A stretch of 50,102 bases of DNA from a virus. The position numbers were made by a program, and so were the translations under genes. A model generated the notes under the pieces. That model searched no databases and was not told the DNA's origin. It worked only from the letters and a program-made list of their open reading frames with translations. Below are positions 4,683 through 43,797 of the stretch, in pieces; the first letter of the stretch is position 1, and each line of letters opens with the position of its first letter. The stretch covers positions 1-50,102 of the IMG/VR virus record IMGVR_UViG_3300049460_000097; one strand, 5' to 3'.

Positions 4683-6959
4683 TCACCGGTCGATAATCTC
4701 CACGTTCATGGCCTCGCAAATAATGTCATTCGCCGCGGCAACAGCGTTTGTAGCATTTACGGCAATTGCCAAGCCGCTTGCAAGATTGTTGCTTGGGAGG
4801 GTTACCGCTGATGTGATTGTTGTCGCCCCGACGGTACCCTTTAGCGTGGCCTTCTGCGAAGTCGACGATATGATATCAATCGTTGCCTCCAACTCCCAGC
4901 TTGCACCTGACGTGGTTGTTGTGAACCCGCCCATGCTTATAGTTGCTCCTGTAAGAAGAACCGTCTTGCCATTGGCGTTAGCTGCGGTCCGTCCATAAGC
5001 TTTTATTCTTATGCGCTTGCCAGCATGCATATATTCGGATGGGATAGTTACCGACATAAGGTTAGTGGCGGTCGTATTAGCGGCGGTAGCAACTGCTGTC
5101 GTGTTTTTGAAGACGGAGTCGCCGACAAAATTCAAGTTGGCCTGATCCTGAACATCGATCGTGCATCCGGCAAACCTGTTGCCCGCGCCCACCTTGTAAT
5201 TACGGATGGTAGAAGCGAGAACGATACCCGATGCGCAATATTGGATAACGTTCGCGTCAATCACAGAGGCGCGCAACAGATTGGTACTAGCCCCATACGT
5301 TACTGCTGTTATTGATATACCTGTTCCGACGCTGACATTACTGTCGGTAGCTGCAATCTCATTTCCAATTATGGTCTGAGAATGTGCGTCGATGCAGTTG
5401 ATAACGGCATTACCTGATCCTGACGTCCACAGAAGATTACCCGTGATCTGGCTATCAGCTACCCTTTTAAGATATATCGCATTATTCGTAGTATTTATAT
5501 GGCAGCCATGCATAACCAATTGTGATTCGTCTGAGGACGTGCACTCGTAAAATATTCCATATGTACCTGAGACAAAATCACAATCAGAAACATGGATGCC
5601 TTCAATATAGCTTTCGCCCTGAACTGCTATCTGGAAGTAATAAGCATAGCAATTTGTAACGTGGTATGGCGACGCATCCTGGCCCGATGCAATAGCCCGA
5701 AACCAGATGAACTTCCCTATCGTTGGGAACGCCGGCGATCCGTACCATTGGCAATAATTGATTTCTACGTCGCTTGCCGAAAGCGTCTGAATGCCGACAG
5801 ACCAGCAATAATTTGGGCTATCTGAGGCAAACATGCAATCATGAACACGAAACGATGGGGTCTGGCGCCCTACAATGTCATTGCCGTACATGGTCAAGGC
5901 TGCGCCGGCGGCTACGCCAGAAGTTCCGCCAGTAGCAATGAAATCTATACCTGCAATTGTCGCGGTATTCGTCGGCTTTGTTGCGTCACCAAAATACCAC
6001 CAGTTGCCATTTGAACGAGTGATATAAAGGCCATCACCGGCCGGGAACAGGAAGCGCGTCTTACCGTTGCCCTGGCCTTCGATGTGCAATGCATAACCAT
6101 TGCCATTAATAGCAACATTGAGAGTTCCAGAGAACGTAAAACTTCCGTCTCTGACATGAAGCTTACCCCATGTCTGTTTCGCTAAATTGCAAGCCGCCAA
6201 GAAAGCGGTATTGTTGACAGATCCGATATTGCCTGGCGCAAGTCCAAACCAATTTGCCCACACCTCGCCATCAGTATTGCGCACCCAGCAGCCCGTGGTG
6301 ACCGGAACACTTGAAGATGCGCAATAAATGCCCTGGCTGGTATCGATGCCTGTCAACGTTGTAAAGTCGCCCAGAACCCAGCGCCAAACTCCTTCACGAC
6401 CGCTTTCCTTGAGGGCCGCTGAAGTCCATACCGAGGTATTGAGTGCAGCCATTGCCGTTCGATCAGCAACAGGAATGGTGCCAGGTAGAATGGTAGCTGC
6501 CGCAGCTTCAGCCTCTGCCGCCGCTGCCTCGGCCGCAGCCTGTGCGGCTTGTGCCGCTACCTTCGCGGCTTCGGCAGCGGCAGAGTCCGTGAGATGGATC
6601 AACTCGAACTGGATATCAGTCGTACCAACCACAACAGGATTGGCGGTCGTAACAGCGTAGAGAACGTTATCATCGAGGTTGCCGTTGACGATCAGGACCT
6701 GCGTCCCAGTAACGACATCCCTCGTCTTGTTGAAATCCTTCGATCGGCGCCATTGGCCGGTGTCGGCGACATAAAGGCCGTTCTCATAGCCAGCCGTCTG
6801 GTTCTTGACGAGGACCCGATCACCAGTAACGACCGCAATACCGTCAATAGTCTGCTCGCCATAGAGCGCAATGTTGGCCGTAGTGGCAACTCGGCATGGG
6901 CCTTTGATAGCTGTGGAGGAAGACAGGCCGTCGGTACGGTCAGTGGCGATCGAAGTCAT
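4683..6959 (-). CDS. Tailspike / receptor-binding protein with beta-helix
   Basis: A 758-residue structural protein. Residues ~20-125 form the N-terminal virion-attachment domain common in rhizobial phage tail fibres (GEQTIDGIAVVTGDRVLVKNQ and the following NGLYVADTGQWRR). Residues ~127-160 are an Ala-rich coiled coil. Residues ~250-620 carry the Gly/Asn/Ser-rich, strand-turn pattern of a right-handed beta-helix with repeated INY/GNxI-type rungs, followed by a beta-rich C-terminal domain. It probably binds, and may depolymerise, a surface polysaccharide. AGAGGA precedes the ATG. Codon use is more AT-rich toward the C-terminus, as expected for a frequently exchanged host-range gene. Confidence 0.88.
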   Translation of the reverse strand: MTSIATDRTDGLSSSTAIKGPCRVATTANIALYGEQTIDGIAVVTGDRVLVKNQTAGYENGLYVADTGQWRRSKDFNKTRDVVTGTQVLIVNGNLDDNVLYAVTTANPVVVGTTDIQFELIHLTDSAAAEAAKVAAQAAQAAAEAAAAEAEAAAATILPGTIPVADRTAMAALNTSVWTSAALKESGREGVWRWVLGDFTTLTGIDTSQGIYCASSSVPVTTGCWVRNTDGEVWANWFGLAPGNIGSVNNTAFLAACNLAKQTWGKLHVRDGSFTFSGTLNVAINGNGYALHIEGQGNGKTRFLFPAGDGLYITRSNGNWWYFGDATKPTNTATIAGIDFIATGGTSGVAAGAALTMYGNDIVGRQTPSFRVHDCMFASDSPNYCWSVGIQTLSASDVEINYCQWYGSPAFPTIGKFIWFRAIASGQDASPYHVTNCYAYYFQIAVQGESYIEGIHVSDCDFVSGTYGIFYECTSSDESQLVMHGCHINTTNNAIYLKRVADSQITGNLLWTSGSGNAVINCIDAHSQTIIGNEIAATDSNVSVGTGISITAVTYGASTNLLRASVIDANVIQYCASGIVLASTIRNYKVGAGNRFAGCTIDVQDQANLNFVGDSVFKNTTAVATAANTTATNLMSVTIPSEYMHAGKRIRIKAYGRTAANANGKTVLLTGATISMGGFTTTTSGASWELEATIDIISSTSQKATLKGTVGATTITSAVTLPSNNLASGLAIAVNATNAVAAANDIICEAMNVEIIDR

Positions 6960-38682: not shown

Positions 38683-38699
38683 TGAAAGATCGGCTTTCT
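38683..38699. promoter_or_regulatory. Operator O2
   Basis: TGAAAGATCGGCTTTCT, one base off the TGAAAG-N5-CTTTCA consensus. Starts 41 bases from O1 and ends 17 bases before the CI start codon at 38717, so it should control CI transcription. Confidence 0.75.
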
Positions 38700-38716
38700 T
38701 GATGCATATTCTAGCT

Positions 38717-39424
38717 ATGACAACTGCGCGCCGAGTCGATGAAGAGAGGGGCAACAGAATTCGGGAGGTTAGAACCGAAATTCTGAAGCTCGGATCACAA
38801 CAAGCCCTCGCCGACCTCTTAACCCGTGAGGGTAAAGGGGTGACGCGCGGCGCTGTCGGAAATTGGGAGCTTGGAAAGGAAGTTGGGCTGGACGCCCTTA
38901 CAGTTCTATCGCGCATTGCAGGCGTACGTATTGAATGGCTTGCGTACAACGATGGCGAGAAGCTATTATCTTCTATCGCTGGTCCAATGGAACCAGCGAA
39001 CGCCAGACAGACGGGGGAATTTCTCCGGAGCCTGGTCAAGGTTCCTCAATATGGCTCCGCCGTTGGCGGGGAGGATGGCGAGTTTGTTTTGAATGGTAAC
39101 CGCCTAGATGATGTTTTTGCCCCACCAAGCTTGAACGGCATTCAGAATGCCTATGCTGTGCAAGTATCAGGCGACAGTATGTATCCGCGATATGAAGATG
39201 GTGAGACAGTCTTCGTGAACCCGAATCGCCGTACCGTTAAAGGTGATTACGTTATTGCTGAAATACATCTGATCGAGAATAACCCGCCGTTGGCCTATAT
39301 AAAAAAACTGGTGAGACGAACCGATAAAGAATTGATCCTTGAGCAGTTCAATCCTCCGAAAATATTGAAGTTCGAAGGCGACAGGGTGAAGAGCGTCCAC
39401 TACGTTTTGAAATCCGGCGAATAA
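38717..39424 (+). CDS. CI-type repressor, XRE HTH plus S24 peptidase
   Basis: A 235-residue lysogeny repressor. The N-terminal helix-turn-helix includes REVRTEILKLGSQQALADLL and GVTRGAVGNWELGKEVGLDA. The C-terminal S24/LexA-like domain has the nucleophile Ser in VQVSGDSMYPRYEDG and a matching Lys in AYIKKLV 42 residues later, as in LexA, so RecA-stimulated self-cleavage is plausible; a canonical Ala-Gly cut site was not identified. ATG 38717 is preferred because a TATTCT box (38707-38712) ends four bases before it, and no ribosome binding site is present, so the mRNA may be leaderless. ATG 38702 is the alternative. Confidence 0.9.
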   Translation: MTTARRVDEERGNRIREVRTEILKLGSQQALADLLTREGKGVTRGAVGNWELGKEVGLDALTVLSRIAGVRIEWLAYNDGEKLLSSIAGPMEPANARQTGEFLRSLVKVPQYGSAVGGEDGEFVLNGNRLDDVFAPPSLNGIQNAYAVQVSGDSMYPRYEDGETVFVNPNRRTVKGDYVIAEIHLIENNPPLAYIKKLVRRTDKELILEQFNPPKILKFEGDRVKSVHYVLKSGE

Positions 39425-39611: not shown

Positions 39612-39929
39612 ATGGCAAAGCGCATTGAAAATATCGACATCGAAGTTGGCATCCGAGTTCGGGACTTCCGCCGCATCCGTGGCGTGACGCAGACCGGCCT
39701 TGCCAAGGCTCTCGATGTCACCTTCCAGCAGGTTCAGAAATACGAGAAGGGCGTGAACCGGATTTCGGTCGGGAGCCTTGTCGCCATCTGCCACGCGCTC
39801 AACATCGAGCCGATGGATTTGCTCGGCGTTTATTTCGGCCATAGCGAAAGCCCGGCGACGCCGATGTTGCTCGCCGAAGTCAAAACTCTTCGCACCAAGA
39901 TTTCCGACATTCAGCAGCTCTGCGCTTAA
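39612..39929 (+). CDS. XRE-family regulator, first gene of rightward operon
   Basis: A 105-residue helix-turn-helix protein of the kind widespread in alphaproteobacteria: IDIEVGIRVRDFRRIRGVTQ, TGLAKALDVTFQQVQKYEKG, VNRISVGSLVAICHALNIEP. The C-terminal tail is a short helix (LLAEVKTLRTKISDIQQL). It follows PR and its operators, has AGGA eight bases before its ATG, and probably regulates early genes or the switch. This makes a third regulator besides CI and the Cro-like protein. Confidence 0.85.
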   Translation: MAKRIENIDIEVGIRVRDFRRIRGVTQTGLAKALDVTFQQVQKYEKGVNRISVGSLVAICHALNIEPMDLLGVYFGHSESPATPMLLAEVKTLRTKISDIQQLCA

Positions 39930-40348: not shown

Positions 40349-40377
40349 GCCACCAACCCACCACAAGGGGCATGAAC

Positions 40378-41706
40378 ATGAACAAAATTATCAGAACCAA
40401 GACGCGAGCTGAAGGCGGAATTACGCCGGAGGAAAAGGCTCGCATGGATTCTCACAGCAAGCTCTGGATCGCTCGTGGCATGCGCACCGATCCTATCGAA
40501 CCGGAGAAGATCATCCCAGCCATCGAAGGGCTTTACAAGGTAGCCGGACTGAAGGCACCGCGCGTTGTCATCGTTCCTTCGCCTCTTGTCATGGCCTTTG
40601 CTTACGGTGCTTCTGCAGCTATTTTGTATGGTCGTAAGCACGCCGCCACCGACGCCGCCACCGACGCCGCCACCGACGCCGCCACCGACGCCGCCACCCG
40701 CGCCGCCACCCGCGCCGCCACCGACGCCGCCACCCGCGCCGCCACCCGCGCCGCCACCGACGCCGCCACCGACGCCGCCACCGACGCCGCCACCCGCGCC
40801 GCCACCGACGCCGCCACCGACGCCGCCACCCGCGCCGCCACCCGCGCCGCCACCCGCGCCGCCACCGACGCCGCCACCGACGCCGCCACCTACGCCGCCA
40901 CCCGCGCCGCCACCTACGCCACCACCTACGCCGCCACCGACGCCGCCAGAAAGCCTAGCGCCAAAGGCGCAAAAGCTCTCGCAGAGAGCGAAGCGGCGCG
41001 CGTATGCCGAGAGCTAGGCGGCGACCTCGGGATTCAATGCGCGCCGCGCTGGTATGACGCCTATCAGGGCGGCAACATGTGGGCTGGGTATGACTGCTAC
41101 CTCACCGCCTGCCGCGATATCCTCGGCTTGGAATTGCGAGAGCATGAAGGTTACGCACACTGGGAACAGGCTGCGATCCACGGTGGCTTTCGTGTCATGC
41201 ACGAAGAATTCTGCCTCGTATCGGATTTCCCAGAAGTCTTGAAGGTTGATGATCAAAACCGACCGCATTGCGAGAACGGCCCGTCGCATCGGTGGCGTGA
41301 TGGATGGTGTCTTTATTTCTGGCATGGCGTGGAAGTGCCGGCGCATTGGATCGAGGATCGAGAAAACCTTGATCCGAATGAGGTCATCAAGGCGGCGAAT
41401 GTCGAGCAGCGAGCCGCAGGCGCGGCAATCATCGGCTGGCCGAAGATGCTCACCGTCCTGAAGGCCAAGACGGTCGACAAGCACGCAAGCCCTGACATCG
41501 GCGAACTTATCGAGCTGACATTGCCGGGCCTTCCAGAACCTGGGCGGTTTCTGAAGGCCGTATGCCCTCGCAACGGAGTCATCGTTGAGGGCGTACCCCG
41601 CGTCTCCGACATTGATGGTCTTCCGATCAACACTGCCTTGGCCGCTCAGGCCTGGCGGATCGGCGACCCACAATCCGAATACATCCACCCCGAGCGTAGA
41701 ACCTGA
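40378..41706 (+). CDS. DUF6745-like protein with 26 XAAT repeats
   Basis: A 442-residue protein. N-terminal residues ~20-85 (HSKLWIARGMRTDPIEPEKI, KVAGLKAPRVVIVPSPLVMA) and the C-terminal ~160 residues (DQNRPHCENGPSHRWRDGWC, LYFWHGVEVPAHWIEDRENL, AANVEQRAAGAAIIGWPKML) match the DUF6745 plan. Between them are 26 tandem four-residue units XAAT, where X is Asp, Arg, Tyr or His. The repeats could form a long solenoid or helix with X on one face. DUF6745 proteins elsewhere also carry four-residue repeats, but with other residues, and no function is known to me. Start 40378 is preferred because AAGGGG lies seven bases upstream. Confidence 0.75.
   Translation: MNKIIRTKTRAEGGITPEEKARMDSHSKLWIARGMRTDPIEPEKIIPAIEGLYKVAGLKAPRVVIVPSPLVMAFAYGASAAILYGRKHAATDAATDAATDAATDAATRAATRAATDAATRAATRAATDAATDAATDAATRAATDAATDAATRAATRAATRAATDAATDAATYAATRAATYATTYAATDAARKPSAKGAKALAESEAARVCRELGGDLGIQCAPRWYDAYQGGNMWAGYDCYLTACRDILGLELREHEGYAHWEQAAIHGGFRVMHEEFCLVSDFPEVLKVDDQNRPHCENGPSHRWRDGWCLYFWHGVEVPAHWIEDRENLDPNEVIKAANVEQRAAGAAIIGWPKMLTVLKAKTVDKHASPDIGELIELTLPGLPEPGRFLKAVCPRNGVIVEGVPRVSDIDGLPINTALAAQAWRIGDPQSEYIHPERRT
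40639..40950 (+). repeat. 26 tandem 12-bp repeats
   Basis: Twelve-base unit of the form NNC GCC GCC ACC repeated 26 times within a coding region. Changes among units are nearly confined to the first two bases (GAC, CGC, TAC, CAC); one unit has ACC in place of GCC. Frame is kept throughout. Confidence 0.97.
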
Positions 41707-41719
41707 AAGGAAAGTGCAT

Positions 41720-42067
41720 ATGAAACAGGTAATTGGACAGCAGGGCGAATGCAGGATCGTCAAGATCGATGCTCTACCCGTAGACATGGAGACGAAGACG
41801 GTCGATCGCGTTGCGAAAGGCTTCGTCATCTCCCACTCCGAAAGCGGACATCACCATGTTTTGACCGGCGGCAACGTGATGGAGCGCACCAACAACGTTC
41901 CGGTCGGCATGCAGATCTTCTTCGCAATTTTGGATGAACCGCAGTCGTTCATTCAGGACGCAGCGAACCCGCACGGCGGCTACGACCTTGATCCCGGCAT
42001 CTACGAATTTCGTGTCTCGCGTGAATTCGACCCGTTTTCCGAAATGGCGCGTCGCGTCGCCGACTAA
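41720..42067 (+). CDS. Hypothetical early protein
   Basis: A 115-residue protein starting MKQVIGQQGECRIVKIDALP. It has a beta-rich core (GFVISHSESGHHHVLTGGNV) containing HSESGHHHV, possibly a metal site. Preceded by AAAGGAAA. Proteins of similar size and pattern occur in phage early operons; function unknown. Confidence 0.6.
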   Translation: MKQVIGQQGECRIVKIDALPVDMETKTVDRVAKGFVISHSESGHHHVLTGGNVMERTNNVPVGMQIFFAILDEPQSFIQDAANPHGGYDLDPGIYEFRVSREFDPFSEMARRVAD

Positions 42068-42134: not shown

Positions 42135-42371
42135 ATGGAAAAATGCGATTTCAGAAGAATGAGGGAATGCGACTGCAAGGCCGGCCAATGCCAGCAGGAG
42201 ATTGCGCTTGCCGCCCCTCTCATCACCTTCACCGCCAAAGAGCAGTTCTTTGCCATGGCGATGCTTACCCTCTTCATGATCTCGATCAGCTATTGGGCGC
42301 TGTCCAGTGCGAACGAAGCTTATCGGAAGCAGGCTCTTATCAATCAGGAGGATGTCGCATGGAAAAGGTAA
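42135..42371 (+). CDS. Small membrane protein with N-terminal cysteines
   Basis: A 78-residue protein starting MEKCDFRRMRECDCKAGQCQ. Three or more N-terminal cysteines precede one membrane helix (~38-60, EQFFAMAMLTLFMISISYWA). AAGGGG lies before the start. It overlaps the next gene by 13 bases. Function unknown. Confidence 0.55.
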   Translation: MEKCDFRRMRECDCKAGQCQQEIALAAPLITFTAKEQFFAMAMLTLFMISISYWALSSANEAYRKQALINQEDVAWKR

Positions 42372-42898
42372 AATCTCCCATGCCGGCCGACCGCATGGTC
42401 ATGATCCAGACTGAAGCGGCCAAGCGCCTGATCCAGAACCTGCATGATCAAGGTTTCTCGGAAGATGCCGACCTAGTCACCGACAGCATCGAAGGCCAGA
42501 CGAACCTTGCTGAAGCGCTTGAAGAAGCGCTTTCCGAGATCGACGAGTGCGAGATACTGATCATCGGCCTGGATGAGAAGATCAAGGCATTCGATGCTCG
42601 CAAGAAGATGCAGGCTGATCGGGCCGAGCGCATCCGCGCACTGATCGAGCAAGCGCTTGTCGCTACTGAGCAGAAGTCGATGAAGCTGGCTACGGCAACT
42701 ATCTCGCTAGCCACACGCGCGCCGTCCCTCATCATCGAGACGGAATCCGACATTCCGGCCCGGTTCTGGGTCGAGCAAGAGCGCCCTGCTCCCAAGCTCG
42801 ACAAAAAAGCCCTTAGCGCCGCGCTCAAGGCGAAGGAAGCCATTCCCGGCGCTACCCTCGATAACGGCAGTGTAAGCCTCACTGTAAGGAGACGATAA
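42359..42898 (+). CDS. Gp157-like protein (recombination-associated)
   Basis: A 179-residue protein matching the Siphovirus Gp157 type: long N-terminal helical region (DEKIKAFDARKKMQADRAER, LIEQALVATEQKSMKLATAT) then the conserved RAPSLIIETESDIPARFWVE and LSAALKAKEAIPGATLDNGS. Such proteins are almost always next to RecT/Bet genes, as here, and one is linked to phage resistance in Streptococcus thermophilus. Start 42359 has AGGAGG ten bases upstream. It probably supports phage DNA recombination. Confidence 0.85.
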   Translation: MEKVKSPMPADRMVMIQTEAAKRLIQNLHDQGFSEDADLVTDSIEGQTNLAEALEEALSEIDECEILIIGLDEKIKAFDARKKMQADRAERIRALIEQALVATEQKSMKLATATISLATRAPSLIIETESDIPARFWVEQERPAPKLDKKALSAALKAKEAIPGATLDNGSVSLTVRRR

Positions 42899-43797
42899 TG
42901 AACGCCATAACCCGCTTTGATATGACCTCACGGCAGATCGCGCTCGTCAAGACTACAGTCGCCAAGGACACCAACGCCGAAGAGTTCAATCTCTATCTTG
43001 AGGTTGCCAACGCCAAGGGGCTCGACCCATTCCTTGGGCAGATCATCCCCATGGTCTTCAACAAGGACAAGGCCGACAAGCGGAAGATGACAATCATCAT
43101 CAGCCGCGACGGACAGCGTGTGATTGCGCAGCGGTGCGGCGACTATCGCCCCGCCAGCGAGCCGGTGATCTACGATACCGACAAAACGCTGATGTCGCCA
43201 CTGAACCCGCAGGGCATCGTCTCGGCTACGACATATCTCTGGAAGCAGGACCAGAAGTCCGGCGAATGGTTCAAGGTCGCTGGACAGGCCTTCTGGGAAG
43301 AGTTTGCGCCCGTCTCCGACGAATGGGTTTATGACGAGGCCGCCGGCAAGCGCAAGCCGAGCGGCAAGAAGGTTCTGGATAGCTCCGGCAACTGGTGCCG
43401 CATGCCGCGCCTCATGATCGCCAAGTGCGCCGAGATGCAGGCATTGCGGGCCGGCTGGCCTGAACAGTTCACCGGCATGTACGATGAAGCCGAGATGGAC
43501 CGCGCGAAGGTACTGGACCTGTCGGCTTCCGAGATCGTCGAGCATGAAAAGACGCAGAGCCGTCTTCAGGCCATCGGCGGCGCGGATACGATCACCGTTA
43601 CCTGGGGTGACAATTGGGCGCTGGAAAACGTCAAGGTTGGCGAGTTTGCCGACCGGGTAGCCGAATTCATCAAGGCTGAGCCGAAGGAAAAGATCCTCAA
43701 GTGGCGCGATGCCAACCGCGAGCCGTTGCGGCAGTTTTGGGCGCGCCATCCCGGAGATGCTCTGGAAATCAAGAAGATGCTTGAGGCTGTCGCATGA
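42898..43797 (+). CDS. bet: Bet/RecT-type single-strand annealing protein
   Basis: A 299-residue annealing protein. MTSRQIALVKTTVAKDTNAEEFNLYLEVANAKGLDPFLGQ and MTIIISRDGQRVIAQRCGDY are typical of phage recombination protein Bet; FWEEFAPVSDEW and WCRMPRLMIAKCAEMQALRAG belong to the family's core. Anneals complementary strands during phage replication and repair. No lambda-Exo or YqaJ partner was recognised nearby. Start overlaps the Gp157 stop (TAATG). Confidence 0.92.
   Translation: MNAITRFDMTSRQIALVKTTVAKDTNAEEFNLYLEVANAKGLDPFLGQIIPMVFNKDKADKRKMTIIISRDGQRVIAQRCGDYRPASEPVIYDTDKTLMSPLNPQGIVSATTYLWKQDQKSGEWFKVAGQAFWEEFAPVSDEWVYDEAAGKRKPSGKKVLDSSGNWCRMPRLMIAKCAEMQALRAGWPEQFTGMYDEAEMDRAKVLDLSASEIVEHEKTQSRLQAIGGADTITVTWGDNWALENVKVGEFADRVAEFIKAEPKEKILKWRDANREPLRQFWARHPGDALEIKKMLEAVA

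Follow-up and report, generated by a model that had tools for sequence, protein, structure and literature searches.

The XAAT array at positions 40639–40950 of a 50,102-base viral record (G000), analysed over its whole length and hereafter called the window, is a real, selected and fast-evolving element within a widespread, uncharacterised phage module. More than a curiosity of sequence, it seems to be an evolvable module of wide occurrence. Arrays with the same four-residue period recur in related DUF6745 proteins, one residue of the unit (X) varies in a strongly biased manner, a small partner gene is linked to the array gene, and some phages encode arrays as separate genes.

Identification of a four-residue array in a DUF6745 protein

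The array lies in an open reading frame at 40372–41706 (+ strand) that encodes a protein of 444 amino acids. Reading of this frame and Tandem Repeats Finder confirmed exactly the 26 in-frame units of 12 bases described by the first-pass annotation, a count that comes from a metagenomic contig assembly in which the 312 bp array is longer than a typical short read. Over the whole window, Tandem Repeats Finder detected this single array (period 12, 25.8 copies, score 464), and the two-unit pattern GCCGCCACCNNCGCCGCCACC matched 22 times in the window versus 0 times in 100 dinucleotide-preserving shuffles. GC content is 85% in the array versus 58% in the window. The lag-4 score of the array is 71.4 versus 2.0 for lags 3, 5 and 7; since the score peaks at lag 4, a pentapeptide or other period-3, -5 or -7 repeat protein was rejected. 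Two other open frames, at 40565–41017 (+ strand, with TPPP units) and 40602–40889 (− strand), cross the array, as fits with a stop-free GC-rich repeat.

AAT had been described as fixed, with X switching among Asp, Arg, Tyr and His. This holds for 24 of the 26 units but not for unit 24 (YATT) and unit 26 (DAAR); the X residues are 13 Asp, 9 Arg, 3 Tyr and 1 His. Near-invariance of the units except for their first two bases likewise stands in 24 units: leaving units 24 and 26 aside, variation is confined to bases 1–2 of the X codon, which is NNC throughout (third base C in 26/26).

On the + strand, the array (predicted helical with low confidence) separates an N-terminal domain kept in relatives (aa 1–89, 40372–40638), whose final helix continues into the array in the AlphaFold2 model, from a C-terminal region (aa 194–444, 40951–41703). 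The PF20530 (DUF6745) match falls in the latter, outside the array, at aa 260–372 (41149–41487). With 42.2 bits against a cut-off of 27 (44.4 bits in a six-frame search), it establishes the DUF6745 membership that had been proposed. The match spans profile positions 28–140 of 206 in the window and 33–201 in the genomes of L003 and L004.

The array gene is flanked upstream by a CI-like repressor (38699–39424; phrog_4, 8.6e-34) and a small HTH regulator (39612–39929; phrog_8, 4.1e-10), and downstream by a Mu Gam-like end-protection protein (42359–42898; phrog_253, 1.7e-27) and a RecT-like annealing protein (42898–43797; phrog_2780, 5e-24), all on the + strand. An integrase at the window start, a terminase, a head-tail adaptor and tail proteins are also encoded. 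This gene content, integrase and CI-like repressor among others, indicates that the phage is temperate.

We know of no function for any DUF6745 protein, and the term DUF6745 was absent from the openly licensed literature searched. PADLOC assigned no family to the array protein. When a profile of 40 sequences was compared with solved structures, only weak matches were obtained (best E 0.023), mostly to designed helical proteins and to lysozyme or lysozyme-fusion chains. Structural comparison with the PDB gave no chain at Z ≥ 5 among 290 aligned, and of the two BFVD matches at E ≤ 0.001 one was a DUF6745 protein from a Microcystis phage, the other an uncharacterised fragment. These results are not evidence of a new fold.

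A period of four residues is common to related DUF6745 proteins

Searches of genomes and of viral contigs gave 5 and 12 loci respectively, and a profile of the C-terminal region identified 247 relatives among 267 candidates in IMG/VR, of which 80 were listed. We read 87 loci, window included, with repeat copies of one contig omitted and some near-duplicates retained; these loci do not sample the whole of DUF6745, because they were selected for likeness to the window protein. At least five period-4 units were found in 73 of the 87 loci, and lag 4 beat lags 3, 5, 6 and 7 in all 73. The gene is uncut by a contig end in 54 loci and the array is in frame with DUF6745 in 47 of them, with 7–75 units (median 28). 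L002, at about 10 units, exemplifies a short natural array and L028, at about 53, a long one. This, together with the conservation of both flanking domains, supports translation of the frame. L004, a Pararhizobium locus on the same contig as L016, is counted among the 47 despite a frame break inside its array (about 6275–6310), on the side of the N-terminal domain. Full-length proteins without an array were found in L064, L065, L076, L099 and L105. L104 was also scored as array-less, yet a second open frame holds an array and the gene is broken.

The units differ among relatives: XAAT, XSAT, XNAT, XQAT, X[AD]QV, X[AD]NL and others were observed, as well as X[GD]QL in a bacterial DUF6745 protein (L024) and in an annotated M. 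abscessus prophage (L147), and XSSL in an environmental phage. The Pfam DUF6745 match was confirmed for L139, L146 and L147. No array was present in the Microcystis phage DUF6745 proteins of the 7 records read. Proline accounts for 1 of 8347 array residues. The first-pass annotation had suggested that DUF6745 proteins share the repeat period and not its sequence, and the 73 loci with their differing units bear this out. As read from predicted translations, period 4 rather than sequence is common to related DUF6745 phage proteins, which is a new finding.

Several individual loci deserve mention. The arrays of L034, L035 and L038 contain occasional three-residue units, which shift the four-residue register and keep the reading frame. 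L005 and L015 are near-identical to the window at the protein end and differ in N-terminal part and array type, as in a mosaic gene. A bacterial DUF6745 protein (L166, G718) has apparent membrane helices in place of the array, and a weak match to the partner (3.9e-8) stops some 0.9 kb short of its DUF6745 match. In another bacterial genome (L025, G118), DUF6745 matches a protein with leucine-rich-like repeats. The XAAT DNA pattern was found in 33 IMG/VR stretches. They were rejected as arrays outside DUF6745, many having no DUF6745-like motif and reading as other low-complexity sequence, often out-of-frame proline runs; L123 and L127 appeared DUF6745-like on full reading, by eye only.

Array length and order differ between near-identical genes

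Comparison of unit number and X order among relatives, a check proposed with the first-pass annotation, revealed that both differ between near-identical genes. The DNA of the C-terminal domain is 100% identical, and the arrays differ, between the window and L007 (726 bp), L034 and L035 (687 bp), and L060 and L061 (654 bp); in the pair L040/L041 this DNA is 99.7% identical. All these sequences are assemblies, in which contig ends truncate several of the arrays. The 26 units of the window compare with at least 32 in L007, which is cut by the contig end, and their order differs. L034 and L035, both uncut, share 133 front and 295 end residues and total 493 and 474 residues; the gap of 19 residues is no multiple of four, three-residue units being included. 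L060 and L061 share their last 29 units exactly and diverge beyond. In these assemblies, array length and order thus differ between otherwise identical genes. This need not be the case for every pair, since the proteins of L092 and L093 are identical and those of L055 and L056 agree at 295 of 296 residues compared.

Alignment of the window and L007 arrays gave 23 identical, 0 substituted and 12 gap units under a heavy substitution penalty, and 21 identical, 3 substituted and 10 gap units with equal costs; on re-scoring, two of three schemes were degenerate (free ends, cheap gaps). Pure whole-unit insertion and deletion without substitution was rejected as it holds only under the heavy penalty. 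The longest run shared by the two arrays is 9 units, a length reached in 57 of 1000 shuffles. We infer that arrays change in a unit-wise manner.

The X codon carries a signature of selection

Codon statistics were computed on 58 arrays (1705 units) out of the 67 with at least 40 array residues. L007, L041, L056, L061 and L093 were dropped as near-duplicate genes, L034, L035 and L038 as near-duplicates with register breaks, and L087 for its mixed register; the register-slipping L084 was kept. Departures from the commonest residue (N) and codon departures within a residue (S) were counted over units, not events. At X, 1049 residue versus 18 synonymous departures were found, i.e. 58:1 compared with a rough yardstick of 3.8:1 from random single-base changes, N at X being inflated by construction because the X column is picked as the most variable of the four. 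For the other three codons, the counts were 376 and 84 (4.5:1, expected 2.4:1).

Variability within the X codon is 0.11 at the third base versus 0.61 and 0.43 at bases 1 and 2. One third base occupies at least 95% of X codons in 43 of the 58 arrays (C in 28, G in 11, T in 4), and third bases are mixed in some arrays. Owing to this uniformity per array, CGT/GAT/TAT and CGC/GAC/TAC arrays encode the same residues. The main X codon sets are NNC (D, R and Y plus H, G and A) and NGG (G, R and W, often with GAG for E). Scaffold codons are mostly uniform inside an array and differ across arrays (GCC-GCC-ACC, GCG-GCG-ACC, GCA-GCA-ACC), in agreement with the homogenisation that had been proposed. The selection on X proposed alongside it is likewise supported, both by the N and S counts and by the recurrence of the same residues on different synonymous backgrounds. 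The X set is conserved in relatives: R is present in 53, D in 46 and Y in 43 of the 58 arrays, and by class an aromatic residue in 57, R/K in 53 and an acid in 49. The order of X is near random and net charge is near zero (mean −0.03 per unit over the 58 arrays), and neighbouring X residues are of opposite charge slightly more often than in shuffles (231 versus 205, SD 10.7).

The array is probably a long helix around which X winds

AlphaFold2, run with 40 sequences, modelled both domains well and drew most of the array as helical with a block pLDDT of 41–71; for the X[AD]QV array of a relative, pLDDT was about 50. The structure prediction called for in the first-pass annotation thus yielded a helix, at low confidence only. 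Block pLDDT is 92–96 for aa 11–80, 85 for aa 81–90 and 64 for aa 91–100. The model has one helix entering the array from the N-terminal domain (H71–132) and another leaving it (H197–230), and suggests that the array is probably a long alpha-helix.

An ideal alpha-helix turns by 100 degrees and rises by 1.5 angstrom per residue. A four-residue unit therefore adds 40 degrees and 6 angstrom, X circles the helix in 9 units, and the X stripe over 26 units would make about 2.9 turns, assuming a straight alpha-helix. The claim of a tuned surface on one face is consequently unsupported: 4 × 100 makes 400 degrees, so that X winds round the helix with a shift of 40 degrees per unit. A face-specific X code along the helix was rejected as well, the lag-9 autocorrelation of X (z = 0.8) indicating no 9-unit periodicity. 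Over the 58 arrays, the largest departures among the 16 lags were at 1 (z 2.2), 5 (2.0), 8 (3.2) and 14 (−4.2).

A small downstream gene is conserved with the array gene

The array gene is followed at 41720–42067 (+ strand) by a gene for a 115-aa protein with an HSESGHHH motif. A homologue of this partner is predicted on the same strand in 83 of the 87 loci, and in 76 no more than 150 nt separate it from the stop of the array gene. Three of the 4 loci in which it is missing have less than 520 bases of contig left; L017 gave no partner match in the 5.7 kb left on its contig. Of 394 genomes from the family of G002, 5 carry DUF6745, and the partner is confined to 4 of these 5; two of them, G001 and G002, had been found via DUF6745. 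A search of the annotated phage collection with a relative of the partner gave 8 records, all within the 11 with DUF6745, and the window's own partner used as query found none. No partner was found in the bacterial DUF6745 genomes G118 and G292, or directly downstream in the L147 prophage. That a 115-aa downstream gene is conserved in 83/87 loci, as judged by homology, is new.

Pfam, NCBIfam, PHROG and PADLOC assigned the partner to no family, and its profile matched only dom34 among solved structures (0.022, over 30 positions). Its histidines lead us to guess that it could bind metal. At L121:11976–12365 (− strand), a DUF6745 protein (53.6 bits) has a tail with a partner-like GHSH motif (hhalign probability 19, E 0.0012). 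A DUF6745-partner fusion was not accepted for L121, as the tail fits the partner profile over 37 columns round GHxH only, and this putative fusion is kept as a lead.

Some phages encode arrays as separate genes

In the 40 kb of the L065 record that were examined, seven array-only genes of 61–78 aa surround an array-less DUF6745 gene and its partner. The L076 record has five array-only genes near an array-less DUF6745 gene, the last one cut by the contig end, and in L195, where the DUF6745 gene is cut, a single one lies on the far side of the partner. Three phage lineages thus encode array-only genes in the same locus, with array-less DUF6745 visible in two, which is a new observation. Neighbouring array-only genes overlap by 11 bases and have similar heads (e.g. 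MSNKTKDAT) and tails (e.g. RELEHVE). Such genes were seen in L064/L065, L076, L195 and L156:15171–18924. Arrays of either kind, fused or visibly separate, were not found in L099, L105, L172, L183–L188, L191, L193 and L194, in a scan that sought A/V-T/I units and may miss other unit types.

An array that is fused in most phages and separate in some suggests that array, DUF6745 and partner act jointly and that the role of the array goes beyond spacing. Physical contact between the three may be involved.

Discussion

The reading we prefer, which we hold tentatively and by analogy, is that the array is an evolvable, frame-keeping interaction or tuning element of a phage conflict protein. DUF6745 and its small HSExGHHH partner would form a core acting early in infection or in lysogeny, with the four-residue array placed between the N-terminal domain and DUF6745 or supplied as small genes beside both. 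Slippage or recombination would gain, lose and shuffle units, so that length and X order change fast while the frame survives; selection would fix the scaffold residues and hold X as an acidic, basic and aromatic mixture. A likely use, by analogy with gp54 of phage Tweety, would be to retune the protein as its defence target in the host or a prophage changes, and we infer a counter-defence function on the same basis.

An unlikely but serious alternative is that the array is a rigid spacer or ruler that only sets how far apart, and at what angle, the N-terminal domain and DUF6745 lie, X being solubility filler. The same idea has been proposed for Tweety gp54 as a juxtaposition model, in the available wording of a mycobacteriophage review, and it would account for the predicted helices running into and out of the array, for the varying array length between near-identical genes and for the balanced X charges with their mild excess of opposite-charge neighbours. 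However, the separate array proteins of L064/L065 and L076, encoded beside an array-less DUF6745, cannot space the two halves of a DUF6745 protein, and the residues at X are far from random, synonymous changes there being very rare.

A further reading, which we regard as speculative and rather unlikely, would have the two-gene core use the hypervariable array as a swappable specificity cassette, either fused or multiplied into an array-gene cluster, unit recombination then providing a repertoire of binders with no dedicated mutator.

It is less probable that the array acts as a multivalent sticker in condensates or self-assembly, with Arg and Tyr/Trp together with Asp/Gly driving homotypic assembly. 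The X alphabet (R, Y/W, D/E, G, H), the near-zero net charge, the conserved composition in near-random order and the low pLDDT would suit such a role, but proline is nearly missing and a helix is predicted for two different arrays. We disfavour, as quite improbable, a mostly neutral GC-rich minisatellite expanded by slippage and tolerated between domains: the high GC content, the differences between near-identical genes and the array-less members are in its favour, but the N:S ratio at X, the recurrence of the same X residues on different synonymous backgrounds, the presence of arrays in AT-rich sequence too (L064) and the retention of the array in 73/87 loci argue against it. Finally, it is very improbable that short-read assembly made the array length and X order, even though a contig end truncates the gene in 33/87 loci (at the array in 31 of the 33), the L004/L016 contig has a frame break in its array and the near-identical pairs are metagenome contigs, for arrays also occur in named-strain genome assemblies (L001, L002, L004 and L005, themselves drafts) and in the annotated prophage record L147, Tweety-type arrays occur in many annotated phages, and an artefact could alter length or order but would not create the X pattern.

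Phages need proteins that switch target fast with the frame kept, and a 12-base, four-residue unit with one free residue would be a very simple route to this. If the proposed tuning element works as reported for gp54, the same trick would serve two proteins whose backgrounds share no detectable homology. Whether the array binds something or only sets a distance can be tested thanks to the separate array genes and the conserved partner, and the 247 IMG/VR stretches encoding a relative of the C-terminal region offer a large uncharacterised module for anti-defence screens.

Comparison with known systems

Within DUF6745 (PF20530), period-4 arrays are likewise present in a bacterial and a mycobacterial-prophage member; the unit of the window is XAAT, as opposed to the X[GD]QL or XSSL of other members. 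Variable regions of diversity-generating retroelements have changes focused on few codons, often of NNC type, and variation in the array is similarly focused on few codons. Retroelement-targeted mutagenesis was nevertheless rejected: no PF00078 reverse transcriptase match was obtained in the 50,102-base record, a fragment that could lack the gene, and adenines of neighbouring codons are unmutated. The Thr codon of the window is ACC in 25 of the 25 units counted, and Gln CAG or Asn AAC scaffold codons are near-fixed in other arrays. As described in the available text of PMC2884959, VR2 of bbp36, a gene of unassigned role in Bordetella phage BMP-1, also consists of short repeats whose number varies; by that description, its element differs in being 24 bases long.

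In the openly licensed literature on phage tetrapeptide repeats and repeat number, only the work on Tweety was pertinent, the rest being apparently unrelated. According to the accessible part of PMC2884959, Tweety gp54 contains 48 tetrapeptide repeats, each encoded by 12 bases, in which third bases never vary; when recomputed, its array varies only at bases 1–2 of two codons. In the portions available of two reviews (PMC9262239 and PMC8549241), defence-escape mutants of Tweety gained or lost gp54 repeats, repeat number is said to tune how gp54 counters the systems of the prophages Phrann and MichelleMyBell, and wild-type gp54 is inactive against Phrann. Tweety-type arrays are present in many annotated phage genomes, and in 9 of 9 phages with a whole-gene gp54 match, among the 60 of 119 records listed, the length offset is a multiple of 12.

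Both gp54 and the window protein are encoded by a non-structural phage gene and have 12-base in-frame units with an Ala pair, invariant third codon bases and variation only at bases 1–2 of the variable codons; in both, repeat number differs between close relatives, which for the window are assemblies. Unlike the window protein, gp54 has no DUF6745, and its variable residues are G/W/Q and S/Y at two positions. The role of gp54 rests on escape mutants, whereas the window protein is known from its sequence. The gp54 flanks aligned with the window protein at an hhalign probability of 20 over 12 columns, and no Pfam family was found in gp54; with flanks of no detectable homology, it is the array that carries the analogy. 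By this analogy the window protein may function as gp54 does, and is not shown to belong to the gp54 family. Tweety gp54 is the closest known system, and the principle of such an array is already in print for it.
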